DNA from: a virus
Length of the DNA: 52,189 nucleotides
Strand: one strand, 5' to 3'
Virus record (IMG/VR): IMGVR_UViG_3300040960_002552
Coordinates: 1 to 52,189 of that record
Under the pieces are notes generated by a model. The model searched no databases. It was not told the DNA's origin and saw nothing but the letters and a program-made list of their open reading frames with translations. This document shows positions 5,195 through 46,700 of this stretch, piece after piece (the first letter of the stretch is position 1; each line of letters opens with the position of its first letter). Position numbers and translations under genes: made by a program.

Positions 5195-5221
5195 AAACAA
5201 CAAAACAAAACAAAAACAAAA

Positions 5222-6264: not shown

Positions 6265-8021
6265 AAACATACGCGCTGGACTTTGAGTCCTACTACGACA
6301 AGGAATGCTCCATATCTGTTCTGGGACCGCTAGGTTATTTCTCTCACCCAGACTTCGATGCTTACATGGTGAGTGTTGTAGGAGATGACGGATATGTTTA
6401 TGTGGGACACCCGAAAGAGTTTGATTGGAGTATCCTAGAAGGAAATAGAGTTCTGTCACACAACGCCGCTTTTGATGAAACCCTTTACCTTTTCGGCATT
6501 GGGATGAAGTGGTGGGATGAAGTGGACTACGCGGAATGGCACTGCACTGCTGATATGGCAGCGTATTGTGGGCATCCAAGGAACTTGAAGGGGGCTTCAA
6601 AAGCTGTCTTAGGGATAGATCTAAGTAAAGAAACCCGCGACACAATGAAGGGGCAGAAGTGGGACGGTATGGACTCTTTATTCAAAGAAGAGGTTCTGGA
6701 ATACGCCACTAAAGACTCCGAGTATTGCTTGGCTCTTTGGCAGAAACTTGAACCCCTGTGGCCGAAAAAGGAAAGAGAGATCAGCGTTATGAATCGGAAA
6801 GCAGCCCAGGGAGGTATCCCAGTAGACTCCGACTACATTGAGGAGTGTATCGCTACCCTCAATAAAGAACTTTTTTTGGCCGAACAAAACATCCCCTGGA
6901 TTGGGGAGAAGAAACTTTTATCGAGAGCGGCCTTTAACGATGAGTGCAGGAAGAACGGGCTAGTCCCCCCTGCATCACTGGCGAAAGATAATGAAGAAAC
7001 CGAACGCTGGTTTCGCGCCCACAGTAAAAAGTTTCTTTGGATCGGGGCAACTAGGAACTGGAGACGAATAAATGCGCTCAAGAAAAAAATGTTATCCTTC
7101 CGGGCCGCTACTATGCAGAATGGAAGATACTACGGGGGGTTGATGTATTGGGGGGCGCACACGGGAAGATTCAGCGGCAGCGGCGGGAACCTAAACCTTC
7201 AGAACATGCCGCGTGGTGAACTGTTCGGGGTAGACATGAGGAAAGTAATCTGCGCCCCAAAAGGAAAAAAACTCGTAGTGGTTGACTTATCACAGATCGA
7301 AGTTAGAACATTATCCTGGTTGTCGGGGGACTCAGGGATGCTAAAGAGAATCGAGGAATCAGATGACATCTACGAAGCGTTCGCTATCCAGTTTGGGCTG
7401 TGGGACGAGTCGAAAGGGTCTTTGAAAAAGGAAGACCCTTCTCTCAGGCACACCGTAAAGACGATGGCTCTTGGATGCGGCTACGGAGTGGGGGCGAAAA
7501 GATTTAGTGAGTTTAGCGGAACAACAGAAAAAGAAGCCGCTAAGTCTGTAGCACTCTACCGGAGCAGCCTCCCTAAAGTAACTAGGTATTGGAGGGACTT
7601 AAATGATTCTTTGAATGTTGCTTATGATTCAGAATGCCCTTTTGAAATCTCTTTGCCTTCTGGCAGGAAACTTAGATATGGGAGTTTGTATTCCAATAAA
7701 ACATCTAGGGGGATAGAGCTAGTAGCCAAAATTACAAAAGGGTCAAACAAAGTCGCTATGAAACTTTGGGGTGGGATTTTAGCGGAAAACGCCGCCTCTG
7801 CATTGGCGAGGGATATTTTCACTGACGCGATGCTCCGAATCAGAAAAGAAGGATATTGGATACTGTTTCACGTCCACGATGAGGTGGTCGTAGAGGTGGA
7901 CGAAGACAAAGCTGAGAAGGCTCTGGAGGACATAACTAGGATATTATCCACGCCACCAGAGTGGATTTCAAAGATTCCACTTGAAGCCGAGGGAAAAATA
8001 CTGCAAAGATACGAAAAATGA
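6261..8021 (+). CDS. DNA polymerase, family A, with 3'-5' exonuclease
   Basis: 586 residues. The N-terminal DEDD exonuclease has D7 and E9 (LDFES), D72 (HNAAFDE), and Y148/D152 (YATKDSE). The polymerase domain shows HTGRFSG followed by LNLQNMPR, motif A DLSQIEVR from D340, a motif B region near 394-407 (R394, K398, Y406-G407), and motif C HDE at 537-539. It is the replicative polymerase of the phage. The ATG at 6261 is chosen because it overlaps the previous stop; an upstream in-frame start at 6243 lacks support. The primase-helicase follows with a four-base overlap, so the two are made together. Confidence 0.96.
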   Translation: MKTYALDFESYYDKECSISVLGPLGYFSHPDFDAYMVSVVGDDGYVYVGHPKEFDWSILEGNRVLSHNAAFDETLYLFGIGMKWWDEVDYAEWHCTADMAAYCGHPRNLKGASKAVLGIDLSKETRDTMKGQKWDGMDSLFKEEVLEYATKDSEYCLALWQKLEPLWPKKEREISVMNRKAAQGGIPVDSDYIEECIATLNKELFLAEQNIPWIGEKKLLSRAAFNDECRKNGLVPPASLAKDNEETERWFRAHSKKFLWIGATRNWRRINALKKKMLSFRAATMQNGRYYGGLMYWGAHTGRFSGSGGNLNLQNMPRGELFGVDMRKVICAPKGKKLVVVDLSQIEVRTLSWLSGDSGMLKRIEESDDIYEAFAIQFGLWDESKGSLKKEDPSLRHTVKTMALGCGYGVGAKRFSEFSGTTEKEAAKSVALYRSSLPKVTRYWRDLNDSLNVAYDSECPFEISLPSGRKLRYGSLYSNKTSRGIELVAKITKGSNKVAMKLWGGILAENAASALARDIFTDAMLRIRKEGYWILFHVHDEVVVEVDEDKAEKALEDITRILSTPPEWISKIPLEAEGKILQRYEK

Positions 8022-28789: not shown

Positions 28790-28824
28790 CCTGAAACCTG
28801 AAACCTGAAACCTGAAACCTGAAT
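28790..28824 (+). repeat. Heptamer leader (CCTGAAA x5) before 28826
   Basis: Four exact CCTGAAA units and a fifth CCTGAAT end one nucleotide before the ATG. It belongs to the series of heptamer leaders in the accessory island. Confidence 0.8.
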
Positions 28825-28825
28825 A

Positions 28826-29554
28826 ATGAAAACACACATCACCCCCAAATCCGGAAACGGAAAAGTTGGGCCCATCCCAGTGACTACGAGTAGCGCGGAA
28901 ACCTGCGCATTGTCCTGCCCTTTTAATCATGCAAACGAGGGAGGATGTTATGCGGAATCCGGGCCCCTTAAGCTTCACTGGGACAAAGTGACGCGAGGGG
29001 AGAGAGGGGAAACCTGGAACGAGTTTCTCGATTCTCTCATCACTACCTTGCGCAAATCGGAAGACCCGCGCCAATTGTGGAGGCACAACCAGGCAGGAGA
29101 TCTCCCTGGAAACGGAAACGAGATCGACGTTCAACAGCTGGCCGATCTCGTTAGGGCAAACGGAAACCGGAGAGGGTGGACATACACACACAAACCTGTT
29201 TTGAACGGACAGGACAAACCGGAAACCGTTTCCACGAATCGTGACGCTGTCAGGATGGCAAACGAGGGCGGTTTCACTGTTAACCTTTCCGCCAATAATT
29301 TGAGTCACGCGGACGAGCTGGTATCGCTTGGTATCGCTCCGGTTGCCACTGTCCTTCCAAAGGAAACCGAAGGACGGAAACTGGAAACTCCGGAGGGAAG
29401 GCCAGTCGTCGTTTGCCCTGCTACGCTTCCAGGCTCGAACGTCACATGCGCCACATGCGGTTTGTGCGCAGTGGGAAACCTTAACAGACCAATTGTCGGG
29501 TTTCCCGCCCATGGGACCGGAGCGAAGAAAGCCGACGCGGTAGCGTCCCGATAG
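28826..29554 (+). CDS. Cysteine-rich phage protein with GCYAESGP and [12 protein letters not shown] motifs
   Basis: 242 residues. Conserved-looking blocks are [72 protein letters not shown] and [16 protein letters not shown] recognise this layout from uncharacterised phage proteins (DUF7227-type, from memory). The paired Cys clusters at both ends suggest a zinc or iron-sulfur site. A relationship to the radical-SAM-like phage Gp37/Gp68 family is possible but unproven. It starts the rightward accessory island behind its own promoter and ends at a strong terminator. Confidence 0.6.
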
Positions 29555-29569
29555 CGTGCCAGGTATCGC

Positions 29570-29600
29570 AAGGGGCCCCTCGAAAAGGGGCCCCTTTTCT
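29570..29600 (+). terminator. Strong terminator after 28826-29554
   Basis: AAGGGGCCCCT pairs with AGGGGCCCCTT around CGAAA, followed by T-rich sequence. Each arm is itself nearly palindromic, so alternative cruciform pairing is also possible. Confidence 0.8.
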
Positions 29601-29604
29601 ATGT

Positions 29605-29838
29605 ACCGGTCTCACGCTCTACCGGTCTCACGCTCTCACGCTCTCACGCTCTACCGGTCTCACGCTCTCACGCTCTCACGCTCTCACGCTCTACCGGTCT
29701 CACGGTCTCACGCTCTACCGGTCTCACGGTCTCACGCTCTACCGGTCTCACGGTCTCACGCTCTACCGGTCTCACGGTCTCACGCTCTACCGGTCTCACG
29801 GTCTCACGCTCTCACGCTCTACCGGTCTCACGGTCTCA
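29605..29838 (+). repeat. 24-bp minisatellite (ACCGGT/CTCACG type)
   Basis: The dominant 24-nt unit contains ACCGGT, CTCACGGT and CTCACGCT in that order. The first 90 nt show a less regular 7-8-nt CTCACGCT arrangement. The unit length is a multiple of three, so one reading frame stays open by chance, and no initiation signal supports translation. No unique spacers are present. Position between two operons leaves origin, recombination or packaging roles possible. Confidence 0.85.
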
Positions 29839-29859
29839 CCTGGCACAGCCGCACATGCT

Positions 29860-30074
29860 CTCACGCACTCACTCACGCACACTCACGCACACACGCACTC
29901 ACTCACGCACACACGCGCACTCACTCACGCACACTCACGCACACACGCACACTCACGCACACACGCACACACACGCGCACACACGCGCACACACGCGCAC
30001 ACACGCGCACACACGCGCACACACTCACGCACACACGCGCACACACTCACGCACACACGCGCACACACTCACGC
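29860..30074 (+). repeat. Alternating purine-pyrimidine CA/CG tract
   Basis: About 215 nt built from CACGCA, ACACGCGC and CACTCACG words. Between about 29957 and 30020 a decamer ACACGCGCAC is repeated five times without change. Most of the tract alternates pyrimidine and purine, a pattern known to favour Z-DNA. The strand has almost no T. Confidence 0.85.
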
Positions 30075-30099
30075 ATCCCGAACCCTGGAACCTGATCCC

Positions 30100-30190
30100 T
30101 GAACAATTTTATTTCGAGCCATAACACCCTGACCAGGAGCGGTTTACGCCTGACCTAGAAAGAAAGTTTACATTTTTCTGTTGACTATTT
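30100..30190 (+). repeat. 91-bp duplicated regulatory element, copy 1
   Basis: Nearly identical to 31528-31618 (87 of 91; the four differences are all A/G). It ends in a TTGACT box and contains two GTTTAC words and the inverted motif CCTGACCAGG. It lies just upstream of the 30218 operon. Confidence 0.85.
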
Positions 30191-30217
30191 AAGGTGGAGG
30201 ATTCATGGTTCCGGCGT

Positions 30218-30673
30218 ATGAAAACTGAAACGAAATTCGTGGAGGATAAAGCCTCCGCGACGTATGTCGATTATCCTGACTCCATTTTTCATGGGTGCCA
30301 GGACCGATCAGTCTCCCACTGGGGAGACTACAAAATGACCACCCGATCCGCGGGGGTAGACTCCCGTTGCGGGGAGGTAGCCCACCCAGAACTCGGAGTG
30401 GTCGCAATCTTAACCGAAATCCGTCGCCCCAATGGGGTGACGGGGATCGCGTGGGCGTCCACGCACCCAGTCTCTAAAGACTGGGACATCTGCCAAGACT
30501 ACCTTGGCAACAAGCTTGATCTTGCCAAGCAAGCTCAGGAGGAGTATGAGGCTGTGCGGTCCCTGCAAAGGGATCGCTCAGAATTTGTAACCCTCAAAGA
30601 GGGTTACAGAGGCACTCACTTGTCTGCCTACCTCAAGAGAGTGGGCAGGGAAGACCTGCTGTATCTTGTCTAA
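30218..30673 (+). CDS. Accessory-island hypothetical protein
   Basis: 151 residues from the ATG at 30218, chosen because the preceding GGTTCCGGCGT also precedes the next gene's ATG. Mixed alpha/beta with SATYVDYPDSIFHGCQD and GVTGIAWASTHPVSKDWD, and a C-terminal basic helix. First gene behind copy 1 of the 91-bp element. No family recognised. Confidence 0.6.
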   Translation: MKTETKFVEDKASATYVDYPDSIFHGCQDRSVSHWGDYKMTTRSAGVDSRCGEVAHPELGVVAILTEIRRPNGVTGIAWASTHPVSKDWDICQDYLGNKLDLAKQAQEEYEAVRSLQRDRSEFVTLKEGYRGTHLSAYLKRVGREDLLYLV

Positions 30674-30684
30674 GGTTCCGGCGT

Positions 30685-30885
30685 ATGAAACTTGAATCCA
30701 TTATCGGGCATCCTGATGCCTTCCTCTTTGAAACGATCACTCACGACGGCGTCGACGCTATCGTGTCTGGCCTCCGCGAAGGCGATCCAGATGAGGAATT
30801 GATCATCGCGGTCGAAGACACTCACCACTTTTCAAAAATCTACGTCCTCGCCAAAGAGGATGTAGATGTCATCCCAAAATCCTAA
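30685..30885 (+). CDS. Small hypothetical protein
   Basis: 66 residues, acidic (GLREGDPDEELIIAVEDTHHF). Shares the start context GGTTCCGGCGTATGAAA with the previous gene. No family recognised. Confidence 0.6.
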   Translation: MKLESIIGHPDAFLFETITHDGVDAIVSGLREGDPDEELIIAVEDTHHFSKIYVLAKEDVDVIPKS

Positions 30886-30894
30886 CACAATAAA

Positions 30895-31515
30895 ATGAAA
30901 AAAGAAATCGTAATACTTAACGGGCGCGGAGAGTCCATGAGAGTCTCCGCCCTTGTCGTCACCCACCCGCACCCTACTATCGGCGCGGTGGGAATCCACA
31001 AATCCCTTCCGGGATCGGCGTCTACGTGGTCCGCAACTCACGTTCGTTCTGGGCTGAGAATCACTAGAGGTGACACTCGGAAGTCTCTGGTGGAAGAAAT
31101 GACCACTAGGGAGTTCACCGATTCCCAACTGGCAATCGTCGCTGCCGCTGCCGATGCCCCTGAGATGGAAGAGACCACGCCCCCCGCCCCTCAGAAGGAG
31201 ACACGGAAAAGCGTGGACCTCGACGCTATCGTCGATGCGGTTAATCAAGTGGTCACGCTCAGTGACCGTGAGCGCAAAGCAGTTCGCGATGCACTGTCAT
31301 CGCGTAGTGGTAGGCTCAAGGCGTCCGCCCCTGTCGAATCGTGGGCAAAAGCGGCCTGGAACGGGCTACAGCCTAACCCTTGGAAGATTCAAATCGGGGC
31401 GATGATGTTCCTCCCTGATGAGGAGCGTGACCTCCTCCATCGTCTCTCTAAACACACCTGGCCCGTCGCGCTCGACAAGGACATCGAATCCCTAACACGC
31501 ATGGGCGTTGCATAA
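30895..31515 (+). CDS. Hypothetical protein with Pro-linker
   Basis: 206 residues. A beta-type N-terminal part (MRVSALVVTHPHPTIGAVG), a proline-rich hinge near 92-100, and a helical C-terminal part (AVNQVVTLSDRERKAVRDAL, WAKAAWNGLQPNPW). Last gene of the unit behind copy 1 of the 91-bp element. No family recognised. Confidence 0.6.
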   Translation: MKKEIVILNGRGESMRVSALVVTHPHPTIGAVGIHKSLPGSASTWSATHVRSGLRITRGDTRKSLVEEMTTREFTDSQLAIVAAAADAPEMEETTPPAPQKETRKSVDLDAIVDAVNQVVTLSDRERKAVRDALSSRSGRLKASAPVESWAKAAWNGLQPNPWKIQIGAMMFLPDEERDLLHRLSKHTWPVALDKDIESLTRMGVA

Positions 31516-31527
31516 ACCACTGAACAC

Positions 31528-31618
31528 TGAACAATTTTATTTCGAGCCATAACACCCTGGCCAGGAACGGTTTACGCCTGACCTAAAAAGAAAGTTTACA
31601 TTTTTCTGTTGACTGTTT
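31528..31618 (+). repeat. 91-bp duplicated regulatory element, copy 2
   Basis: Second copy, upstream of the ArdC-like gene. Here the inverted motif is the perfect palindrome CCTGGCCAGG. TTGACT near its end could be a -35 box. Confidence 0.85.
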
Positions 31619-31633
31619 GCCCGGGACGACGAA

Positions 31634-31654
31634 ACTTGTAGCCTGTAACCTGTA
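31634..31654 (+). repeat. Heptamer leader before 31657
   Basis: Three units ACTTGTA, GCCTGTA, ACCTGTA end two nucleotides before the ATG. Confidence 0.8.
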
Positions 31655-31656
31655 AA

Positions 31657-32526
31657 ATGAAAAAGACAAAAGAAATACAGCAAATGGTGACCGACAGGAT
31701 CACCAATCTACTCGACCAAGGGGTTAACCCATGGCAGAAGTGTTGGAAGGGAATCCGTGAGAGCGGAATGCCTTTCAACCTCAACAGTAAGCGCGCCTAC
31801 TCAGGTGCGAACGTGCCGCTTCTCCTGCTCAAAGGAGGCGACTGTCCGGCGTGGGTGACCTATAAGGGGGCGCAAGAGCTTGGCGGTAACGTCAGAAAGG
31901 GCGCGAAATCCACTGCCATCGTCTTCTGGAACTTCCTTAAGCGCAAGGACGCATCCGGTGAGGAGAAGACATTTCCCATGCTCAAGACCTACAGGGTCTT
32001 TAACGCCCTTCACGACTGCGAAGGATTGGAAGAGCATCTTGAGGCGATCCGCCCCGATGACATCCTCCCCAGCGTCCCTGAGTCTGCACTGGCAGACTAC
32101 GTCGAGCGTGAGGGCATCAAGCTCCAGCACGGCGGGAATCAAGCCTACTTTGCCCCTGCACTGGATCTAGTGCAGATGCCGCACCAACAGAGTTTTAAGA
32201 GCGATGCTCACTACCAGTCAGTGCTGGCACATGAGTGTGTCCACTCCACCGGAACTAAGGACAGACTGAACCGCAAGGGGCTGACCGAAAATGCTGCCTT
32301 CGGAAGTGAGACGTATGCCTTCGAGGAACTGGTAGCTGAGATCGGCGCATGTATCACATGCGCCAATCTGGGAATCGAACCTGACTGGGACAACTCCGCT
32401 GCCTACCTAAAGAACTGGTCAGACGCACTGAAGGACAATCCGTCGTGGATGGTTTCCGCCAGTGGCAAGGGCGCGAAGGCCGCGTCCTTCATCCTCAACC
32501 TTAACCCCGAACAACCTGAGTCCTGA
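31657..32526 (+). CDS. ardC-like: ArdC-type antirestriction protein (zincin)
   Basis: 289 residues. The N-terminal part (VTDRITNLLDQGVNPWQKCW, then AYSGANVPLLLL, WVTYKGAQELGGNVRKGAKS) is the ArdC-type ssDNA-binding domain. The C-terminal part is a metallopeptidase-like domain with HECVH at 192-196 and YAFEELVAEIG at 220-229, giving the zinc ligands. The plasmid protein ArdC protects incoming single-stranded DNA from host restriction. Here it would help the phage genome survive entry or replication. It lies behind copy 2 of the 91-bp element with a heptamer leader, suggesting early expression. Confidence 0.9.
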   Translation: MKKTKEIQQMVTDRITNLLDQGVNPWQKCWKGIRESGMPFNLNSKRAYSGANVPLLLLKGGDCPAWVTYKGAQELGGNVRKGAKSTAIVFWNFLKRKDASGEEKTFPMLKTYRVFNALHDCEGLEEHLEAIRPDDILPSVPESALADYVEREGIKLQHGGNQAYFAPALDLVQMPHQQSFKSDAHYQSVLAHECVHSTGTKDRLNRKGLTENAAFGSETYAFEELVAEIGACITCANLGIEPDWDNSAAYLKNWSDALKDNPSWMVSASGKGAKAASFILNLNPEQPES

Positions 32527-32528
32527 TT

Positions 32529-32556
32529 CCCTTTACCCTTTACCCTTTACCCTTTA
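32529..32556 (+). repeat. Heptamer leader (CCCTTTA x4) before 32560
   Basis: Four exact CCCTTTA units end three nucleotides before the ATG. Same period, different unit from the neighbouring leaders. Confidence 0.85.
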
Positions 32557-32559
32557 CCC

Positions 32560-32781
32560 ATGAAACAAGAAACCATTGCGAAAGCATTCAACATTCAAAA
32601 AGACGGATACCTCTTCCTCACCGGAGCCAGCAACATTGATGGTCTACTATGGGCATCTGAAGATGAAACCTCGCCGGATCACTACGTAGAATTTGAATCC
32701 AGACAGGATGCGGAGGATTTCATCAATCGCCATGAAGTCGCTGAAGCAGAGATCGTCGAGTGCGATTCGCTATGGGCGTGA
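32560..32781 (+). CDS. Small hypothetical protein
   Basis: 73 residues, acidic, compact alpha/beta (DGYLFLTGASNIDGLLWAS, EFESRQDAEDFINRHEVAEA). No family recognised. Preceded by a CCCTTTA leader. Confidence 0.6.
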   Translation: MKQETIAKAFNIQKDGYLFLTGASNIDGLLWASEDETSPDHYVEFESRQDAEDFINRHEVAEAEIVECDSLWA

Positions 32782-32789
32782 ACAACGAA

Positions 32790-32810
32790 ACTTGTAACCT
32801 GTAACCTGTA
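32790..32810 (+). repeat. Heptamer leader before 32813
   Basis: ACTTGTA, ACCTGTA, ACCTGTA, ending two nucleotides before the ATG. Confidence 0.8.
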
Positions 32811-32812
32811 AA

Positions 32813-33118
32813 ATGAAAATAACCACTTACGAAATTACCATTCGCACCACCTCTGAACACGCCGCCGCTCGCAAGAACGGCAAAAAGGGAGGCCGCCCCA
32901 AGATCGTAGTCACTGCTGGCATGGGCAGTTGCCATTGCGGCGACTGTTACGTCAGAGTATTCTCTGACGGCACAATCCAATATCAGGGTTCCGAAAAGTG
33001 GCAACGCAGCGACCGTCGCCCGTTCATGGGAGACGATGAGCCGTATCGGCCCTACAACTCCCGGCTAACGGTCGAGGCTTACCAGAAAGCCACGGCCCGC
33101 CAAACCGCGATGCGCTGA
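32813..33118 (+). CDS. Chimeric small protein, partner 1
   Basis: 101 residues. The first 19 residues, MKITTYEITIRTTSEHAAA, are identical to those of the gene at 33231. The rest differs fully and is basic with KNGKKGGRPKI and a CHCGDCY cluster that may bind metal. The frame after the shared part may have been joined by recombination. No family recognised. Confidence 0.6.
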   Translation: MKITTYEITIRTTSEHAAARKNGKKGGRPKIVVTAGMGSCHCGDCYVRVFSDGTIQYQGSEKWQRSDRRPFMGDDEPYRPYNSRLTVEAYQKATARQTAMR

Positions 33119-33222
33119 AGAAAGGCAAGCTTCCTTGGACGATAAGCACCAGCGGGGAGATCGCGCCCGTGAAATTAGCTACGCCAGAAAAATGGCTGAA
33201 TCCGAACTTTATTTTTAAGTAA
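33041..33222 (+). pseudogene. Possible coding remnant overlapping and following 32813-33118
   Basis: In the -1 frame relative to the gene at 32813, an open stretch runs to TAA at 33220-33222 and reads KGKLPWTISTSGEIAPVKLA and TPEKWLNPNFIFK at its end. It has no start of its own and is cut just before the duplicated leader of 33231. It may be the C-terminal rest of a gene replaced by the chimeric gene. Weak evidence, no family named. Confidence 0.3.
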
Positions 33223-33228
33223 CCTGTA
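33222..33228 (+). repeat. Single-unit heptamer leader before 33231
   Basis: One ACCTGTA unit, two nucleotides before the ATG. It belongs to the segment duplicated from the 32813 gene start. Confidence 0.6.
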
Positions 33229-33230
33229 AA

Positions 33231-33524
33231 ATGAAAATAACCACCTACGAAATTACCATTCGCACCACCTCTGAACACGCCGCCGCCTTGCGCGGGGCGG
33301 GTTGTTCTGGGGGCATGACCCACCTCCGCTATGATGGAGAGGACTTCCGCGAGGGCGCATTTGATGTCGCAACATGGCGTGACGAAAATGAAGCTCGAGA
33401 AAACTTCGGTCGATTAGCTGACGACAGCTTCGGACCAGGGATGGAAATGGTCTTATCCCGTGAAATCTATGACGACGAAACTGACGAATTTGAAACTGAA
33501 GATATTCTTGTCGAGGGTGTTTGA
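33231..33524 (+). CDS. Chimeric small protein, partner 2
   Basis: 97 residues. It shares leader and first 19 residues with the 32813 gene, then continues with an acidic, aromatic domain (GGMTHLRYDGEDFREGAFDV, FGPGMEMVLSREIYDDETDE). No family recognised. Confidence 0.6.
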   Translation: MKITTYEITIRTTSEHAAALRGAGCSGGMTHLRYDGEDFREGAFDVATWRDENEARENFGRLADDSFGPGMEMVLSREIYDDETDEFETEDILVEGV

Positions 33525-33540
33525 GATTAAGAAAATTGAA

Positions 33541-33561
33541 CCCTGTAACCTGTAGCCTGTA
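33541..33561 (+). repeat. Heptamer leader before 33564
   Basis: CCCTGTA, ACCTGTA, GCCTGTA, ending two nucleotides before the ATG. AAAATTGAA stands directly before it, as in the leader at 33928. Confidence 0.8.
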
Positions 33562-33563
33562 AA

Positions 33564-33926
33564 ATGAAACTCACTCTCGTAAGGGGAATCCCAGGTAGTG
33601 GAAAATCTACGTATGCCAGGGGACTCGGAATCCCAGACCACTACGAAGCCGACATGTGGTTTGCGGAGCGTGGGGGATTCGACCCTGCGAAACTGAACGA
33701 AGCCCATGCGTGGTGCTTTGAGAAAGCCAAGGAAGCAATGGACTCAGGCAGATCGGTAGTCGTGTCGAACACCTTCATCCGAAGGTGGGAGATGCAGAGA
33801 TACATCGCCTATGCGGAATCCCTCGGCATCCCTGTCGAAGAGATCGTGATGACTGGCGACTATGGCAGTATCCACAATGTGCCGGAATACACTGTTGAAA
33901 GGATGCGCCAAAACTTCGAAAATTGA
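33564..33926 (+). CDS. P-loop kinase-like protein (AAA_33 / N4BP2L1 type)
   Basis: 120 residues. Walker A is GIPGSGKST at 8-16. EADMWF and LNEAHAWCFEKAKEAMDSG follow as the aspartate and helix typical of polynucleotide-kinase-like P-loop proteins, then SVVVSNTFIRRWEM as the Walker B/lid region. It would phosphorylate a nucleic acid end or small substrate. It is short, with just the core. In an island with antirestriction function it could repair or protect nucleic acid ends, but that is inference. Confidence 0.8.
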   Translation: MKLTLVRGIPGSGKSTYARGLGIPDHYEADMWFAERGGFDPAKLNEAHAWCFEKAKEAMDSGRSVVVSNTFIRRWEMQRYIAYAESLGIPVEEIVMTGDYGSIHNVPEYTVERMRQNFEN

Positions 33927-33927
33927 A

Positions 33928-33948
33928 CCCTGTAACCTGTAGCCTGTA
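33928..33948 (+). repeat. Heptamer leader before 33951
   Basis: Same three units (CCCTGTA, ACCTGTA, GCCTGTA) and same spacing as before 33564. Confidence 0.8.
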
Positions 33949-33950
33949 AA

Positions 33951-34169
33951 ATGAAACTGAAAAAATCAATAGACCGAAACGGTAATTCGATTCTGAGAAT
34001 CGAAACTCCCCGTGGAGGATTCTCCGTTCAAACCAACGGGAACCTGCCCTTCGCGCATGGATGCCCGACAGAAACCCTGGCGGAAAAAAGCTCAATCATC
34101 TTTGAGGAAATCCGCGCCTTTGTGATGGCGCACGGGACTCGCCGCCAGAAGAGAATCATCAAAAGCTGA
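33951..34169 (+). CDS. Small basic hypothetical protein
   Basis: 72 residues, basic (RNGNSILRIETPRGGFSVQT, HGTRRQKRIIKS). May bind nucleic acid. No family recognised. Confidence 0.55.
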   Translation: MKLKKSIDRNGNSILRIETPRGGFSVQTNGNLPFAHGCPTETLAEKSSIIFEEIRAFVMAHGTRRQKRIIKS

Positions 34170-34219
34170 ATCTTGACTCCCTCCTCCCTATCTGAATTAA
34201 AAATAGTTAAAATTAATTG

Positions 34220-34248
34220 TTGACAGTAGGATTTTAATATCGTAATAT
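34220..34248 (+). promoter_or_regulatory. Sigma70-type promoter for the 34283 unit
   Basis: TTGACA at 34220-34225, 17-nt AT-rich spacer, TAATAT at 34243-34248. This is the clearest bacterial promoter in the window. A GGGGTGTTCCCC mini-hairpin lies between it and the ATG at 34283. Confidence 0.7.
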
Positions 34249-34282
34249 TACAAGCAGCAGGGGGTGTTCCCCACAAGCAATT

Positions 34283-34603
34283 ATGACTGATAAAGAATAC
34301 AAAGAACTGACACGATCCCGAACCGCATACGAGTGGGGGGTCGAACTGGTGATAGACGATGAGTCTGAGGACATCGACGACACGTTCTACTTCGATGCAT
34401 TTGCCGAAGCAAAGCAAGAGGCTGAGAAACCCCGCGAGGGATACCGGAACGTGGTCGTATTAATCAGAGAACAAGGATCAGAAAGCCTTGGAGTTACGGA
34501 TAGGCAATGGGCCTATCTTGAGGAAGACGGAACTCTACCCGAAGAGTTCGACGGAGGTAGTCGTATCCCGAAAAGATTTCATCAAGAGGTCGCCAAGGCG
34601 TGA
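34283..34603 (+). CDS. Acidic hypothetical protein
   Basis: 106 residues, acidic, TDKEYKELTRSRTAYEWGVEL and FYFDAFAEAKQEAEKP, then a beta/helix C-terminal part. First gene behind the sigma70-type promoter and one of the few in this part without heptamer leader. No family recognised. Confidence 0.6.
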   Translation: MTDKEYKELTRSRTAYEWGVELVIDDESEDIDDTFYFDAFAEAKQEAEKPREGYRNVVVLIREQGSESLGVTDRQWAYLEEDGTLPEEFDGGSRIPKRFHQEVAKA

Positions 34604-34616
34604 ACCCCAACCCGAA

Positions 34617-34630
34617 CCCTGTAACCTGTA
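34617..34630 (+). repeat. Heptamer leader before 34634
   Basis: CCCTGTA and ACCTGTA, three nucleotides before the ATG. Confidence 0.75.
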
Positions 34631-34633
34631 ATT

Positions 34634-34990
34634 ATGAAACTAGTAAAGAAAACCGATAGTAAATTATTCTTTGAAACCGAATCGGGTTGCCGATTCACGC
34701 GCCCCATCTACGCATCTACCGGAATGGCAGTAGACCTCGACGGTTGGGTATCCACCCGACTCCTCCTGGAACCAGATGAGTTCGACAAGGAAGAGTTTCC
34801 AGAGGTGCAGTGGAGGCTTGAGATCACGCCGGATATCGACATGGAACACCCATTCTTTTCAAGCACACCCTGCTGGCTGAAACCAGGGTGCAAGCACCAA
34901 CTGATCTACCTCGGCACTGATGGTGAAGAACACCAAGCGAAGGTCACCCAGTGGTGGAACGGAACTCAAAAAGGAGAATCACCCGCATGA
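34634..34990 (+). CDS. Hypothetical protein
   Basis: 118 residues, beta-rich (KLFFETESGCRFTRPIYAST, EDQ-poor but E-rich centre, HQLIYLGTDGEEHQAKVTQW). Its stop overlaps the next ATG (ATGA). No family recognised. Confidence 0.6.
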   Translation: MKLVKKTDSKLFFETESGCRFTRPIYASTGMAVDLDGWVSTRLLLEPDEFDKEEFPEVQWRLEITPDIDMEHPFFSSTPCWLKPGCKHQLIYLGTDGEEHQAKVTQWWNGTQKGESPA

Positions 34991-35505
34991 AATACGCGAT
35001 TCACGCTAAAGACAGACCTACTCTGGAAGAGGTGATGGGCGATGACATCCCCACATTCCCGCCTGAGCCAAAAGACCTCGACTTGGCGGAGGCAATCCGT
35101 CCAGGGCTTCGACCTTCACCGGAGGACGGGGATAACATATTCACAGACGGTGAGGTAACCTACTATTGTGTAGAGTTAGAGAGGGAGACTCCCCGCACCA
35201 TCGCTTCCAAGAGGTTCGTCACTGCGAAGGTCTGGTGCAGAACAACATGGAGATATATGTCCGGCGGCTACTGGGAACCTCCCGAAATCGAAGAGCAACC
35301 TCTGGACGAAGAGAGTGGGTGCTGGTCATCTCTCAGCGATGCTGCGAGAGCAACCGCGCACGATGTCCTAGACCGCGAGATCGACGCGCTAGACAACACC
35401 TGCTACGCATGTTTCGGGTGTGGTAAAGAATCACCCCTGGATGAATCCGGGGGCGACTGTAAAACGTGTGGTGGCAAAGGATATGTACCCGCCGCAAAGT
35501 GTTAA
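34987..35505 (+). CDS. Protein with C-terminal CxxC zinc-knuckle
   Basis: 172 residues from the ATG that overlaps the previous stop. The first 130 residues are acidic with a WRYMSGGYWEPPEIEEQPL segment. The end CYACFGCGKESP, then CKTCGGKGYV, is a DnaJ-type zinc-knuckle pair. Likely a zinc-stabilised nucleic acid or protein binder; function unknown. Confidence 0.65.
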   Translation: MKYAIHAKDRPTLEEVMGDDIPTFPPEPKDLDLAEAIRPGLRPSPEDGDNIFTDGEVTYYCVELERETPRTIASKRFVTAKVWCRTTWRYMSGGYWEPPEIEEQPLDEESGCWSSLSDAARATAHDVLDREIDALDNTCYACFGCGKESPLDESGGDCKTCGGKGYVPAAKC

Positions 35506-35512
35506 TTTCAAT

Positions 35513-36034
35513 ATGAAAACCAAAATGAAAAATGAAATAGATAGCTTGCGCTATGAAATTTGGCGCAAGGAAAAGGAAGCGAGAGCGAAAGTGAAAACTC
35601 CTACGTTCGACGAACTGTTCGCACACACGCCGGAAGGTGACTTCCACTGGGAGGGTGACCCGGAAGACGTTGGCAATGTTTGGTGGGGCGACAAAGGTCC
35701 ACGTCAGGATTGCCAATATATCGACATGGGTCGTGAGAACGGTAAAACCTGGTTCGTCGTTTACTTGGAAACTATCGCAGGTTCTAATGACTATCAACTC
35801 GAGGCCGGATGGGATGAGCGTGAAGGAGATGAGATCACCGACGACGTGCTATCGGACCTCCGGTTTCACTTGGAATTCAGAACCATTCGTCACTTCGCTT
35901 CATGGGCGAAATATAACCTAGATTGTGCCATCTCCGGAGAAGACCCGCTGGAAAACTGGTTCGACAGTTCTAAAAACACGCCAGAAAACAATATCGCGGC
36001 GGCGAAGGATAACCTTAAATACCTAACAAAATAG
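35513..36034 (+). CDS. Acidic hypothetical protein
   Basis: 173 residues from the ATG at 35513; a longer frame upstream overlaps the previous gene and is not favoured. N-terminal helix (EIDSLRYEIWRKEKEARAKV), then alpha/beta with GNVWWGDKGPRQDCQYIDMG and KTWFVVYLETIAGSNDYQLE. No family recognised. Confidence 0.6.
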   Translation: MKTKMKNEIDSLRYEIWRKEKEARAKVKTPTFDELFAHTPEGDFHWEGDPEDVGNVWWGDKGPRQDCQYIDMGRENGKTWFVVYLETIAGSNDYQLEAGWDEREGDEITDDVLSDLRFHLEFRTIRHFASWAKYNLDCAISGEDPLENWFDSSKNTPENNIAAAKDNLKYLTK

Positions 36035-36035
36035 C

Positions 36036-36212
36036 ATGAACAAACAACACCTACAGTGGGCGAAGTCCCACGACTGGGGACGCGAGGCGTTCCTCAACAA
36101 CGGGAATCTGTTTATCATAAACAGTGAACCAGCAGGAGTCCACGGGGTATCTCGCGGGGCTTGGATCGAGTTCTCCACATTCCAAAACCTGAGAGCGTGG
36201 GCGGGATATTAA
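36036..36212 (+). CDS. 58-residue hypothetical protein
   Basis: Begins two bases after the preceding stop and ends with TAA at 36210-36212: QHLQWAKSHDWGREAFLNNG, then GVHGVSRGAWIEFSTFQNL. A compact small domain with aromatic residues. Tight spacing to the upstream gene supports it. No family recognised. Confidence 0.6.
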   Translation: MNKQHLQWAKSHDWGREAFLNNGNLFIINSEPAGVHGVSRGAWIEFSTFQNLRAWAGY

Positions 36213-36241
36213 AATGGATCAGTAATTTATAAAGAGAAGTA

Positions 36242-36255
36242 ACCTGTAACCTGTA
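36242..36255 (+). repeat. Heptamer leader before 36263
   Basis: Two ACCTGTA units, seven nucleotides before the ATG (AGAAATT between). Confidence 0.7.
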
Positions 36256-36262
36256 AGAAATT

Positions 36263-36448
36263 ATGTGCGAAGCATTAGAAAAAAGATACAAGGCCGACTT
36301 GAAACGGCTGAAGGCAATTTTTGCCGACTCAAGAGCGGAAGTAAAGTCAGTGGAAGTAGAGATATTCCGGCTAGGATTTGTCTACGGATACACCGCCATG
36401 CATGACCTCACCGTGTCCGAAGCAACCCTGAAACAACACCAAAAATGA
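36263..36448 (+). CDS. Small helical basic protein
   Basis: 61 residues, LEKRYKADLKRLKAIFADSR then a short aromatic segment. Its stop overlaps the next ATG (ATGA). May pair with the downstream regulator. No family recognised. Confidence 0.6.
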   Translation: MCEALEKRYKADLKRLKAIFADSRAEVKSVEVEIFRLGFVYGYTAMHDLTVSEATLKQHQK

Positions 36449-37550: not shown

Positions 37551-37744
37551 TAACCGGACTTCTTGCGGATTAGCTTCTTCACCCGCTTCTCAGCCTTCGC
37601 TTTGCTGGAGTCTGTATTCGACTTACCAGGCTTTGAGTGTCCGTATCCTTTTTTCTTCATGGCTAAGTGCTGTGCGTAGGTATTAGCCTTATAGCCTTTA
37701 CCGGACTTATCATACATCATGTGGGGCTTGAACTTACTCTTCAT
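37547..37744 (-). CDS. Small basic Lys-rich protein
   Basis: 65 residues from the ATG at 37744, which overlaps the end of the giant gene by 11 nt. KGYKANTYAQHLAMKKKGYG and HSKPGKS resemble small basic phage proteins often found near virion genes. The C-terminus is mostly Lys. Possible DNA binder packaged with DNA. A longer frame starting at 37846 is not favoured. Confidence 0.6.
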   Translation of the reverse strand: MKSKFKPHMMYDKSGKGYKANTYAQHLAMKKKGYGHSKPGKSNTDSSKAKAEKRVKKLIRKKSGY

Positions 37745-40700
37745 CTTTGTAATTGTAGGTTCCAGGAACATAGGTTCCATCTTCAAATCCTTTAGTGGTA
37801 TATTTTCTCCTTGCTTCCAGCATGAACCTATAGCGTCGATTCGCATCGCTCACATCATCGAACGTTCTCAGCTTCCCTTCGTCTCCATCTTTTCCAGAAG
37901 TAGGTAAAGGTAAAGAGAACGTCCTAGTCACCAACTGACTACGGGTGCTTCCTCTAAGGTAATTACGAATATCTGTCTTTTTCATCAGTCCGGTAGAACT
38001 GAGTGCAACCGCAATTTCCTCTGGAGACATTCCCATTTTGAAGAACTGCTTGGTTACATTGTCGGTCAAGTCATAGACTTGAATGAGTCCCTCGTAGTAA
38101 GCGTTAGCGGCCTCCCTTACCTCTTCGTCTGTTGGTTTTCGCTCTTGCCTACCTACCTTAATATACTGCGTCATCACATCAGATTTATGCGAGGAAGCAT
38201 TCCGCTTAAAGACGTTATACTTTTTAAGAATGGCGGAATGTCTTTCGGCTACGGATCTAGTGAAAGGCTTCGTTGGCCTAACCGCTCTATCGAAGAGTGC
38301 TTTCGCAGCCGCCTCCATCTTCTCGGACTCTGTTCCTTGAGCAGAGTCATAGGCTTGCTTGCCTTCAATGGTTCCTCGGACAAACGCAGGAGCAAGCCTT
38401 TTTAGCGAATAAAGTATTGGCTTTTCAATACGGTCGGAACCTCTATCAGTTTCCTCAACAATCTTTTCACCATAGGCATCCCGGTTGGTATGCACCGCCT
38501 CATGGTAAACTTCGGACAGGATTTGCTGATCCAATATCTCCCCAAACGCAATCGCCCCCAAGAACCCAGAAACCGCACCCATAGCACCTAGTCTATCTTG
38601 TCGAATCTGCTGGACGCCATAACTAAAGGGATCTCCAAAGAAAGACATTTCATCCATGAAGGTGAAGTTGTAGTCCGTTATTTCCCCTGTTTCACGGTTT
38701 AGGAATCTGACCATCTGGGCGCGTTTGTAGAAGCTGGGGTTGCCCTCGTCCAAGGCATCTTGTTCTTCCTGATCAAGCCCACCTATGAGTTTACTCAATA
38801 AGTAACTGGCGGGGCCGAAGGAGACACCATACATCGCAATTACTCCAGCGAGTCTCTTGACCCCCTCTGTTCTCATGACGGGGTTACTTGACTTCAAAAG
38901 CTCAAGGACTTCTGTGTGGTAGTTCACAAATGTCCTTCCTGTCTCAAACTTGAATCTAGCGAAGGGTGCTACGACAACCCGCAAAGGAGACTCCGCTAGA
39001 GTTTTACCGGCTTGAACAAGGTAGTCCTCACCTGGGGTGATCTTATTCATCATCCTAGCTGCCTCCTTTTCGATGTCGTAGTCTGACATCTCCGAAATCG
39101 GAACCCCTCGGAACGACCCCTCTCCCTTCTTGGCCCTAGCCTTTTTCAAAAGATCTACGTTATTGTAGAACAGTGCGATTCGGAAAGCATTGTCGGATGC
39201 GTTCGTAAGTTTTAATGAGTAGTCTAGTATCTTCTTAGAGAGTTTCCTAAATGCCCTTGAAGCAGGGTTTAGAGACTCCAGTTTGTCCATGTCTGCGATG
39301 AAACTAGGGTCGGGCTTTCTCAGCCCGAAGAGGTCTTTATAAGTAGCCGCCCTCACACTCTGATTGACAACGCTGAGTCCTTCTAGTTTGGCGTGTTCCG
39401 TCATGAGCGACTCCAGAGAAACCCGCTCACCTCTGGCTAAACGGTTAATCCAATCAGGAACGTATCGGTATTTCTCGCTCACCCCAGGCAACGAGACTGC
39501 CGCTTCCGCGATAGCACGAACCATGAGTTTGGTCGTGAAAACAGGCTTCAAGAAAGCTCCCGCTCTAACTGCTCTGAACACAGTAGAGAGAGAGTTTCTG
39601 AAGTGGAAGGCTAGTCCTGAGAACGTGGTTACTCCCATCAGGGTCAATCCATTAAGGAACCCAATGGCGGACACTGCTCTAGCAAAACCCTTAGCAGTTT
39701 CGTCTGCCCGACTCATATCAATCGGGGTTTTAGTTTTCTCAAGTGCGGCCTTGATGTCCTTCCTGACATACTTCTCTTTTAATGGATTAGAGGCAGGGAC
39801 GTTGCCCTCCAACATATCGAATTTTTTTCGGTCTAGTGCGTTTAAGTTACGATACTCATCATCCGACAAGATGAATGGATTATACTCCTCGCCAGCAGCC
39901 TCGGCATCTTTTCGCAAACGATTGTCCAGGTCTACGAGATTCTTGAGCTTCATGATGCTTGCCAGCATATGAGTCTGAGTCTGAATAGTCTGAAGCATTA
40001 CCCGGATTCCGCTGATAGCGTCCTCATCAGAATCATATTGACCAAGAAGACCCCTGATACCTGGAAGCAGGTCTTTCTTTTTCTTGAGTGCGTCATGGAT
40101 TACCTTGGCTCCGCTGGAAGCGTTCTCGTAATCCCTCGCATCTCCAAACGAGGCTAGGTATTTAATCATTGCATTTTTAGCCGCCGTGTCTTCGTCACCT
40201 AATTCTTGATCAACCTCTCGTTTGAACTCTTGGGATTGGCGAATTGCTTGAATCTGATCTTGGGTTACTAATTCCCCACTGATTTCAGCCGCTCTTAGTT
40301 TTGCTTTTAAGAGATTTTTCTCGACCTCACTCCGCGCAATAACTAAAAACTCTGGGATTGCGGTTTCAATTCGCCCTTCAAGTTCGGCAACCTTCTGCTC
40401 ATCCCCCTTCACTTCTTCTCCTTGAAGTAATAGAATGAGGTTTGACTTATAAGTGGGGTCATTAAAGAAGCGATAGCGTCGTGACAAGTAGAAACCTTTT
40501 GTTACATCGAAAGCTAGTTTGAGTTCTTTACTCAGTGCGTCCGCTCCATCTTTACCAAAGTAATCAGAGATATCCGTGATTATTTGCCGTAGTTCGACAA
40601 CCATCTGGGCGAGTTTAGTGTGTCCTCCGTCCTCAAGTTCTTTGAGTGCTTTGGCAACCTTTATCTTATGTTCCCTCGCGGCTTCTTGAAGTAGTTTGTC

Positions 40701-43700
40701 TGTCGCTTCCTTTCGCTTATTATTGGCTTCTTCGTGTAGTTTTTCCCGATACAAGTTCCCTGCGATTACTCCAATCTCTCGATCAGTTGCTGTTGGATTA
40801 TCTTCTCTAGCCTCTTGGATTAGAGCATCAGCTTCTTCTGGAGTCATCTGACGATACGAATTAGGATCATCGCTATTAATCAGTTCAATGTCAGCTTCAT
40901 GCTGATCATCTACGTCCATTTTCGCTTTACGATCAATCACAATGTCTTCCGTTCCAATAGCTGTGTTGAAGGCTTCCCTAATGTCTGCTGGCAAATCACC
41001 TTTGTATTTTTTACTTTTGAGGATACCCATCATCTCAGTGTGGAGACGATTGAGAAGACTACCTACGACGGGAACAAACCTCTCGTTGCCGATAATCATG
41101 TTCCTGAACCGCTCATCTTTAAAGTTGCCATCTATCATACCTTTGCGGAACTCAGACCAAAAACTGCCATCATCGCCCACGATGTCTCTCTGGCTAGGCA
41201 GGTCAACCCCAGTGAGCTTTGAAATCATTCTACGGAACAGCCCGAACTCTTTACTGGTGTGAACCAACGGGATTTCAAGCGTTTGAAGTAGGGGTCGTAT
41301 ATCAAATTCCGCCGTTGCCCTTACATCGTCGCCCCCATCGACATCATCCAAGAACCTGGGTGAATAAAGAATCGAATCCTGATCCCTGTCAAACCGTTCA
41401 TCAATCGGGACTCCGGTAAAGGGGTCGGCGGATTTGATTTGCTCAGGCGACCTTATGACAAGGTGTTCCTCGTTGTGAAACGAGAACGCTTCCTCCAAGT
41501 CGGCATAGCCTGTTATGATCGAGTTCGGGTCGCTCTCGCGGTATAGATCCGCGCCCCCTCCAACGTCCACCATTCGACCTTGGATCTCCATTCTCATTGG
41601 TGGCCCCTTTTTCACAAAGTAACCGTTCGCTAGAGCTATAGGCTCCCCTTGGTCAAAAGCCTCCTGCTGCTCCTGCGTAGGAGTCCCAGCAGGTTCGGTA
41701 AACACAACCGTATCGAACCCAGAAGGGAAGCGATCCGTCTCCTCGCCGCGAGCTACTATTTGTTGTGCCGTAACTCGATCAACGGTTCGCCCTTTCTTGA
41801 CGAAAAGGTTTAGAACCTTGTTGCGGCTCGACTGATATTTATAGGACGAGAATGAGTCGGCCTCATTCGATACGTGAAAACCGCGAATGTTGGTGTCTGG
41901 ATCAAACTCAGGTATCTCGCCTCGGTCGAATGCGTCGAAGGTTGCTCCAGTTGCGTGTCTAGTGCGGGTTTCAAACCCCGCAGCCTTTGCCGCTTCCGCT
42001 ACGATCCGCTCTGCCTCGGCAGTCTCTTCCGGCGTGATGGTTCCTGCATCATGTTTCGCTTCAAGTTCTTTATGGCGAGCGATCTTCTGTGGCGAGATCA
42101 CCCCTGGAGGAATCATGAATCGTTGTGCAGGAGTCAGGATGTCACCATCTTTGTCACGGACAACTAGCTCAGGGTTCTCTACCCCATACCGGGCGGCGAC
42201 TCGTTCCAGGGCTTCTTCAGCCATCTCATAGTCGTTCCGGTCCACGGAGTCCATGTAGATGGCATCGTCACGGGCATCCTCATCAGAGATACGGGGTGCG
42301 CGTAAAATAGAATCTTCACGCTCATCGAACCGCTGGTTTAGCGGACTATAGATAGTAGATAACGCTTCATATCCTTCAAGATTATCCGACAGCGTGTTTT
42401 TTCTGGGATTCGACCCCCACTGCTCTACTTCATATACTTCCCCGCCCCCTACATAAACAGAATAATGTCGGTCTATATTATTTTTGTCCCCTCCAAATCC
42501 AAGAATGTCCCCGACTTCTATTTCTTGTAAGGCTTCGTCTACAGAAAATATTTCCACCTCGGTTTTTGAGAACTGTTTTTTGAAACCCTTGTCCCCAACT
42601 ATTAAATTACAAAAACTCTCACAATTCAAATACGGAGACTCTTCATTAATTTGCTCTACCTTTTTTAAGACCTCTTCTGGTGTAATAGCTGGTGCGCCTA
42701 ATACGCCAACTTGTGATTTTTCATCAGTATAAGTTTTTGTAGCTGTTATTATTGAGCCTTTTAAAGAAACATTACCTTTGCCAAATACTGCCTCTACAAA
42801 AGGTAGATACTCGCGTGTGGTTTGGAATCTTTGCCAACCTTTAGATGTTTGCCTTGCTCCCCTCTCTCTGTCTGCTTTAGATCCTTGATACACTGAAAAG
42901 TGAGCTTCCCCTCCAATTTTCACTGCGTTCTTTGCCTGTCTGATTACGTCTATAATGTTTTCATCTTCTTTTATGACATTCAATACATTATGAGACATAG
43001 CCATATCCGCCTGACCATCTTTTACAGCATCGACTACTCTAGCATTGTGTTCTGGTGTCCTATTGAACGGATCATACACTTCTACAAGTGCGCCTTGCTC
43101 GGCGGCATCTTTTACTAGGTTATCAAAGCGGCCTCCTCCAATATCTACGATAAGTTCGCCGCTTTTTATTTTACCTTGTTTTTTTAGTGTGTTATACCCA
43201 GCAGGTCTTTTCTTCTCATTTATAGATGTGTCGGCTGAATCATAAAGCTGTTCTGGATATGCCCATATATTTTCAGAATCCTGCTCTGACGCAAAAGCGG
43301 GTGCGCGTAAAATAGAATCTTCACGCTCATCGAACCGCTGGCTCAGTGGAATCACGTTGCCGTCTGCGTCACGGGTGACGGGGGCGTCCAGTGTTGTGGG
43401 TGTTTGGGTTTCTTCCGCTTCAGTGTAATTAGGTTGGTCTTTATGGTTGACCCTGATTCTATCGGTCTGTTCTTCAGACAAAACGTAAGCCTCAATATCC
43501 GCTCCATCCAGCATGGCTTTCGTTAGCCTGTGGTTTCCGTCCAAAACAAAATAACTTGTTCCTGTGTCCCCTATGATGATAGGTTTTGAAATGTCCGCTT
43601 TACTTACTACTTCTCTATCAACCGCGAGCGGATTTTGAAAAGATTTCAGGTCTTTGTGGGGAATAGTTTCTTTCTCCACCGCCTCTTGACTTATGATCTT

Positions 43701-46700
43701 AAAAGCACTTTGCTGACCTGCGTATTCAGCTTGGATCACATAGTCATTTCCTTTGTATGGAAACAGTTCTCCACCTTTTCTGTTTTCCAGCAGGGTGTTC
43801 TTTACTTTTAACAGGTAATCATCCACCATACGCTGCGCCGTCTCCATGTCGCCGGATTCGACTGCGGCCAGGTAATCAGCGTCTTGTTCTGGTGTAATAG
43901 CTGGTGCGCCTACTGCGTCAGGCTCCTGTGGGGGGAACATTTGACTGAGTGCTTCGATGTCGGCAGCAGCCCCTTGGGGAGAATCGTCAAATGTGTAACC
44001 ATATGGAAGCGGGGTCTTGAAGTCCATCCGCAACATATTGATCTCATCTGTGATCCTAGCAACTGCCGCCCTCTCTGGGCCAGACAAGAAGCGTCCGTTC
44101 TTAGTCTTCTTGGTGATCCGGCGATACATACCCTTTAAGTATGCGATAACGAGATCTCTGATAGGCTTTCTCTTATCCCCTTTGAGAAGTAGATAAGAGT
44201 CCTCTGTCGTGAACCCTGCTTCCTTATCCTGGTATTGCTGGCGCAAGAACTCTTCAACCAAGTATTCTTTCTGTCGCTTAACAATCTGTGGGTTGTTACT
44301 TTTCAGATCGGATCTCGCCTTTGCTGCGCCTTTTTTGTCGAATTTGAAATAGGTGCTAATCACATACTCGTAGTCAGAGTCAGCCATCCCGTTAACAACA
44401 TCATCGAACAAGGACTGAGGGATAGAATTAAAGGACGCTATGTGCGCGAACTCTTCGACAACTACCCTCTGTAAAGAAGCGGAAACATATTTTTGATGAC
44501 TACTATTAGAGAAGTCTATGTCTCTATTGCCCCTAAACTGCTCAAACAAAGCAACGGGGTCGATTGTTACTTCTCCAGTTCTCCTGTTAGCAGCAGCCGC
44601 AAATCGACTCTTACCTATGACCAGAGTGACCGTAGAAGGGAGTTGTTCCAGTGCCTTCTCTAAGACACTCATGAATATCTTAAACGCCTCTACGTCCTCT
44701 CCTTTGAACTGCTTGGCAGTCTCTTCAATAGATGCTTTACTGAAGACTCGTTTAGTGCGACCTGCACCCAGCCTCTGTTCAGTATTCAAGACGGGGGACT
44801 CGGATGCAGGGGGCAGGATTGGGCTTCCCACTTTGGAAGACACAACGCTTGATATGGCATTGGCCGTAACAGGAGGGGCAGTAACTTGAGCTTTGCCGGA
44901 TAGCTTCCGGAGGTAAGTAATAAACTCCCTGTCGGATTCTGGGTCCAAATTGTTTTGGGGGTTCGAGTCAAGCCAATCCAAGACCGCTGATACTTTCTCA
45001 GAATCAGTAAGGCTATCGAAGTCCTTGATCTTCAGCTTTTTAGTCGTCTTATTACTAGGAAGAACAACAGAGTCGCGACCCACCAGCTTACTAACCTGAG
45101 TGTCGCGAGATGCTTTTTTAAGTATCTTGCGAAGAGCGGAAGTAGTTTTGTTCTTCAGCTTAGACTCGAAAACAAAAGTTACCGGAGATCCATCTATGTT
45201 TGCTTGGAAGGAACTACCTTTACTAATTTTTGCTTTCTGGCTTTGGCGGATGCCCTTTCCTCCCCTGGCTTTCCTCAGAACTCTATCAGCTTCCTCTGCA
45301 TCTTTAACGAATACAACCCTACCACCCGCTTGATTTATTCTGTTAATCTCATCGCTCACCGCTTCGGCTTGCTGTTTAACCTTGGGGTCTGTTGGGGTTT
45401 TAGTGCTTTCGGGGAACGTCGTCTCATCTACCTGGGCGACAACTCGATCAACTTCTTGGTCTTCGGAGAGGGGTTCAACCCTCGGGTCAGGTGTGACATC
45501 GGGTGAACTCAGTTTACTTGGGTCCGCAGCGGCTTGTTGATCGGAGTCAAGAGCCTTATCAATCTCCTTGTTAAGCTCCGCTTCGGGGTCTGCTTCCACA
45601 GGCTCAAAAATAATTTCGATTGGCGCGTCCGCCTCCCCTTCTGCGGTGGGTGTCGCTTCTGGTGGAGGCTCCGCTTCCGTTGTGGGTTCCGTTCCAGGGA
45701 CAGGCTCTGCCTCCGTTGTAGGCTCTGCCTCCGTTGTAGGCTCTGCCTCCGTTGTGGGTTCTGCCTCTGGTGTAGGCTCTGCTTCTGGTGTAGGTTCCGT
45801 TCCAGGGACAGGCTCTGGGGTAGGTGTGGAGGTAGGTGTAGGGGTAGGTGGTGCGAGTCCCATGCGAGCCGCATCGTCCATAGTGAGTTTACCTTTGGCG
45901 ATCAACTCTTCTACTTCGGCGCGTGTTTTGCCGTCAAAGTCTCTGCCCCTAGCGGGAGAGGTCAGGACATTTGCTACCACCTCTGCCGTAAGTGGCGACC
46001 CGCTTTCCGCCAACCTATCTGAAATATCTTCGTAGAGAAGTTGAGACGCTTGCATTGCAGCCTCTCTGCTATCCTTTGAAGGTGCTACCAGCGACCCCAG
46101 ACCCGAACCCGCACTACTCAAACCAGAAACGCCACCACCAAGAACAGCCCCTATGATGAAATCACCCTTGCCTGTCTCGTATGCTTCCTTTAAAAGCTCC
46201 GAATCTACTTGCCCACTTGCTAGGTATTTACCGAACTCAAGGTATTTGTCGAATATCCTAAGAAGCGGAACATCTTCATTTAGTTCGTTATAATCCAAAT
46301 AAGACGTTAGAAAGTCCTCAAAGATTACAGAAGCCCCCGAAGGAAGTCCTTCTTCAATCCCCTCACTAGCGGCCCCAAGTAACAGTTTAGGGATTCCCCC
46401 TCTAGCTACCCCCAACTCTTTCTCCAGTTCCTTTATTGATGTCCCGACAAGTTCTGAAAATTTCTTATTATCAATTTTGCCAAAGTCTTTGCTTAAATGT
46501 TTTTTAAGTGCTTTGGGGGATATACCTTTAAGAATAGAGGACTCCACCACATCAAACCCCCCTTTAGCAAAACCCGCAGTTAAAGCCGCTTCAAAACCAG
46601 TTTTAAAAGCTGCTGCATCAGCAGCAAACTCTCTCTGTTGATCGAGGGTCATGTCTTGACCTTCGGGAGAGTTTTGAATTTGTAACAAGCTGGCTCCGTA

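Follow-up and report, generated by a model that had tools for sequence, protein, structure and literature searches.

Heptamer arrays and the genes they precede

The window analysed here is a whole phage record from IMG/VR, 52,189 bases long. Combining tandem repeat detection with a direct scan at lag 7, we found, directly before start codons, two arrays of 7-nt units with one mismatch and six that are exact, defined by an unbroken run of at least seven matches at lag 7. The original prediction had placed tandem heptamers before nine starts, ending 1–3 nt or 7 nt from the ATG. Eight of these sites hold intergenic arrays of at least two copies, but the ninth, before the ATG at 33231, has only about 1.4 units (TAACCTGTAA, 33219–33230). 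The position directly before the start was correctly described, with measured distances from the six exact arrays to their start codons of 0–6 nt.

The arrays and the genes behind them lie on the plus strand. An exact (CCTGAAA)4.9 array at 28790–28823 ends 2 nt 5′ of the ATG of a gene with a DUF7227/GP88-like domain (28826–29554; PF23872, E = 3e-82). A CCTGTAA array at 31633–31655 (3.3 copies including mismatches, two of them exact at 31642–31655) ends 1 nt before the gene for an ArdC-like antirestriction protein with ArdcN and MPTase-PolyVal domains (31657–32526). Almost the entire gap that follows is occupied by an exact (CCCTTTA)4.4 array (32529–32559), which directly abuts (0 nt) the ATG of a 73-aa accessory gene without a Pfam match (32560–32781). 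An (AACCTGT)3.3 array (32789–32811, with about three exact copies at 32793–32811) stands 1 nt before a 101-aa accessory gene (32813–33118), whose N-terminus is homologous to the 97-aa accessory gene at 33231–33524. Three copies of CCTGTAA with one mismatch, ending 1 nt from the ATG in both cases, precede the gene for a P-loop kinase-like protein (AAA_33; array 33542–33562, gene 33564–33926) and a 72-aa gene (array 33929–33949, gene 33951–34169). A degenerate array at 34608–34631, its 3′ end formed by two exact CCTGTAA copies (34618–34631), lies 2 nt before a 118-aa gene (34634–34990), and an exact (GTAACCT)2.6 array (36239–36256) lies 6 nt before a 61-aa gene (36263–36448).

Two further plus-strand arrays lead no start codon and are exceptions to the leader position. 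One, degenerate, at 30077–30105, precedes a promoter-like module. The other, an exact CACTGAA repeat of 2.3 copies at 31518–31533, lies 2 nt past a stop codon and 5′ of a second copy of that module. The 99-nt module (30092–30190) comprises part of the array and the promoter-like sequence, and is 94% identical to its second copy (31520–31618); a heptamer array precedes both.

Lag-7 runs occurred in the 33 nt upstream of 6 of the 51 curated gene starts, against an expectation of 0.13 under a first-order Markov model (maximum 3 in 500). Other lags from 4 to 16 were found at no more than one start each, except for lag 14, a harmonic. Thus, the observation is real and non-random. Two accompanying features proved unspecific. 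Eight of the nine led genes do open with ATGAAA, but the same is true of five of nine array-free neighbours; the difference is not significant (Fisher P = 0.29), and a specific link to the arrays was rejected. A Shine-Dalgarno (SD) sequence is missing from all nine, but only 4 of the 43 other genes of the phage have one, and a specific loss at the led genes was therefore rejected. Both are general features of this phage.

Leader duplication and unit turnover in related phages

Several leaders are copies of one another, so that the nine sites are not independent. The leaders of the genes at 33564 and 33951 are 100% identical over 41 nt (33531–33571 and 33918–33958), the copy containing the whole array before 33951. 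The partial units before 33231 are a piece of a 68-nt duplication of the leader and N terminus of the 32813 gene (33219–33286 versus 32801–32868, 98.5% identity). From these two copies it follows that leader and gene start were duplicated together.

We found three related phages: 3300021958_000375 (L007), which is close and collinear, and the more distant 3300030012_004117 and 3300022074_000057. The 104-residue protein at 36445 has 74% and 76% identity in the latter two, respectively. A 3740-aa open reading frame fills 37734–48956 on the minus strand of the window; the C-terminal 400 residues are conserved in two relatives, with 80% identity over 400 residues in 3300030012_004117. Two large proteins had no relatives among INPHARED phage records. 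Another record, 3300040807_002665, was 100% identical over 20 kb with equal array copy number, and is probably the same virus. Imperfect, C-rich tandem repeats also fill about 470 nt of the window (29607–30075; CTCACG, TACCGG and CACACG types) directly 3′ of a terminator-like hairpin, GGGGCCCC, and repeats of another unit occupy the matching position in L007 and 3300022074.

The original prediction had period and position stay while the units differ, and this was borne out both within the window (CCTGAAA, CCTGTAA, CCCTTTA) and between phages. The 118-aa gene at 34634 is present in all four related phages, and the best lag of its leader was 7 in each; three of them have a CCTGTAA-like unit there, and 3300030012 has a TAATCAY-like one. 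The period of the array at 30077–30105, which leads no gene, was also kept in L007 and 3300022074. Copy number varied: the array before the 36263 homologue has 2.6 copies in the window, 8.4 in L007, and about 1 and 5.7 in the other two relatives. The window and L007 thus differ there by about six units, and both keep GAAATT-ATG.

Gene content varies among these phages. L007 has an extra gene 5′ of its 34634 homologue, flanked on either side by a copy of the CAACCCGAACC...CCTGTAA leader. The L007 counterpart of the 33951 gene has the same class of leader as in the window, behind another upstream neighbour. Homology blocks ended within 8 nt of an array in 8 of 19 cases (P = 8e-6 versus uniform placement). 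Five other ends fell at, or a few bases from, array-free gene boundaries (e.g. 34987 and 36036), so arrays are not demonstrably preferred over other gene boundaries. The contig 3300022074_000057 starts within a (CCTCTGT)15 heptamer array (positions 1–108), probably because the assembly broke at the repeat.

The DUF5906 protein of the window (8018–10195) had homologues in 23 of 388 Verrucomicrobiota genomes, the best match having 34% identity across about 600 residues, but in none of 296 Bacteroidota genomes, which suggests a possible Verrucomicrobiota host. Heptamer arrays were nearly absent from 400 kb of a Verrucomicrobiota genome with two such homologues, and (CCTGWAA)3 was found in none of nine Verrucomicrobiota genomes with DUF5906 homologues. 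The repeats are therefore untraceable to a host.

Heptamer arrays in other phages and bacteria

Heptanucleotide tandem repeats in non-coding DNA are known from cyanobacteria as STRR, which the window arrays resemble in unit length, tandem arrangement and non-coding position. The original prediction took start-codon leaders of this kind to be new, but they are not: in a marine Beggiatoaceae genome, most TAACTGA heptamers lie within several nucleotides of the start codon that follows, a ribosome binding site is usually missing, and the repeats carry stops in all three frames (MacGregor 2015, PMC4679880). Like them, the window arrays are intergenic, of few copies, mostly forward, and close to starts (0–6 nt). 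Few SD sequences are a further likeness, an unspecific one given their scarcity in the rest of the phage. A translational role was suggested for TAACTGA. Unlike TAACTGA, a single fixed unit of cellular genomes, the arrays described here are carried by phages and vary in unit across genes and relatives, with CCTGAAA, CCTGTAA, CCCTTTA and ACTGAAC among the units.

The GGGAATC and GGGGA(C/T)T heptamers of Xanthomonas and Nostoc are likewise intergenic, with the C-rich strand pointing into the gene at starts and the G-rich strand out of it at stops (PMC4692102). The window arrays share this polarity, as well as the length variation between relatives, and their C-rich strand points into starts except at 30077–30105 and 31518–31533. 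The Xanthomonas and Nostoc repeats differ in being non-phage, in having G runs that form G-quadruplexes, and in lying in repeat regions described as stable (PMC4692102). The complementary strand of the window arrays has no G run longer than GG, apart from CCCTTTA (GGG), and so lacks the four G-tracts of a quadruplex. Among phages, the Start-Associated Sequences (SAS) of cluster K mycobacteriophages are the nearest comparison. These are conserved 13-bp single elements with an AGGAG core (5′-GGGATAGGAGCCC) (PMC3203893), and they too are repeated directly upstream of the starts of many genes of different families. However, SAS are neither tandem nor of period 7, and their AGGAG core is absent from all nine leaders. 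Phages are mentioned in neither of the two heptamer papers (PMC4679880, PMC4692102). As far as the literature searched goes, the occurrence in phages and the turnover of units may be new.

We surveyed viral and bacterial sequences with the chosen units CCTGWAA, ACTGAAC and CCCTTTA, a seeded search rather than an unbiased census. (CCTGWAA)3 occurred in 48 stretches of IMG/VR and, among the matches listed, in genomes from many phyla; its reversed control pattern had no match in 18 genomes bearing (CCTGWAA)3. (ACTGAAC)3 occurred in 15 viral stretches, where about ten arrays lie 4–20 nt before a start in unrelated phages. (CCCTTTA)3 was absent from the 296 Bacteroidota genomes. Recurrence at starts, which the original prediction had proposed as a check, was therefore found both in relatives and in unrelated phages carrying CCTGWAA or ACTGAAC. 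In the unrelated phages, the start was nearer than the stop before it for only 10 of 20 forward arrays, so start proximity in phages partly reflects short gaps.

In bacteria (loci L008–L126), the C-rich strand of CCTGWAA arrays points into the nearest gene edge, whether start or stop. Starts lay within 25 nt ahead of the array in 23 of 52 cases and behind it in 5 of 33; the counts for stops were 27 of 42 ahead and 5 of 61 behind. Other heptamer units in these loci shared the tendency. When each array was flipped in silico and genes were called anew, the gene edges stayed put and the pattern reversed, as fixed edges would predict, excluding a gene-calling artefact as the source of the polarity. 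A reading confined to start codons was rejected, given that most of the stop-proximal arrays in bacteria, like the two exceptions in the window, lead no gene.

Interpretation of the arrays

The leaders are weakly structured. The median minimum free energy of the nine was 0, compared with −4.9 kcal/mol at other starts of the phage (P = 0.0014), and accessibility was 0.87 compared with 0.60 (P = 0.007), a difference in structure that is partly an effect of base composition. Our leading interpretation, to which we give about even odds, treats the arrays as a variant of the known and widespread class of intergenic heptamers that, as we infer, provides exchangeable accessory genes with portable, unstructured leaders. 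In this phage the arrays occupy the short gaps between co-directional accessory genes and thereby supply these genes with their 5′ leaders. An array and its start region would then move together as accessory genes, such as those for the ArdC-like and P-loop proteins, are inserted, lost or duplicated, and the leader would act as an unstructured, C/A-rich, SD-free landing stretch for ribosomes. If low structure is what matters, simple-repeat leaders of other periods are to be expected, and two A/C-rich leaders of period 5–6 were found at or near start codons, one at 5199–5222 of the window (start at 5222) and one before a gene of 3300030012 (L180 803–855, fam26). The translation-enhancing leader of the original prediction fits this accessibility, but a purely translational role is no general explanation, because bacterial arrays adjoin both starts and stops.

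A serious rival, which we hold as a tentative possibility, treats the arrays as neutral simple-sequence repeats: such heptamers would expand by polymerase slippage and persist only in non-coding gaps, and the 20–40 nt gaps of phages would bring them close to starts. Heptamers are over-represented among bacterial simple-sequence repeats (PMC4692102), the arrays also precede the promoter-like module, forward arrays of unrelated phages are as near to preceding stops as to starts, and breakpoints also occur at gene boundaries without arrays. Neutral expansion accounts less readily for a syntenic gene that keeps period 7 through replacement of the unit, in phages with about 80% protein identity, for a bacterial strand polarity that survives the flip control, or for the near absence of periods other than 7 at the starts of the window. 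On another reading, which we find doubtful, it is the 7-nt period itself rather than any sequence that is retained, with one DNA-level process building polar gene-edge arrays across phages and many bacterial phyla, or moving them with genes; the C-rich strand pointing into the gene at starts and stops alike would then be a telomere-like polarity.

Two further explanations appear improbable. Three copies of a stop-bearing 7-nt unit place stops in all three frames, and such an insulator would terminate the upstream frame and permit re-initiation after gene shuffling. TAA or TGA does occur within CCTGTAA, CCTGAAA, ACTGAAC and TAATCAY, a gene in L007 ends on the TAA of a CCTGTAA unit in the leader downstream, and the all-frame stops of TAACTGA were remarked on by MacGregor (PMC4679880). 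Against insulation, the CCCTTTA leader of the 32560 gene has no stop in any frame, no co-directional gene ends close upstream of 28826 and 31657, and 112 nt separate the leader at 33231 from the previous stop.

The other, also part of the original prediction, is a binding site for a protein on the RNA or a translational switch tuned by slippage, and we think it equally improbable. Binding of S1, Csp or CsrA-type proteins was proposed for TAACTGA (PMC4679880), and copy number differs among relatives. The unit sequence, however, is conserved neither across relatives nor across genes, contrary to what a protein site would lead one to expect. Slippage is unlikely to act as a switch, since the array borders the start codon with its 3′ end, which stays fixed: only the upstream end shifts with copy number, as in the window and L007, and frame and start spacing stay. 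The arrays, lying outside the open reading frames, thus differ from phase-variable contingency loci, in which copy number alters frame, promoter or start spacing, though copy number may have promoter-spacing effects at 28826 and 31657. The record that is probably the same virus, 3300040807_002665, showed no difference in copy number either.

These observations extend a little-studied class of heptamer repeats to phages. At a syntenic gene the unit is replaced and the period is retained, and the arrays are tied to the turnover of accessory genes. For bacteria, the polarity of heptamer arrays at both starts and stops is a testable constraint on their origin.
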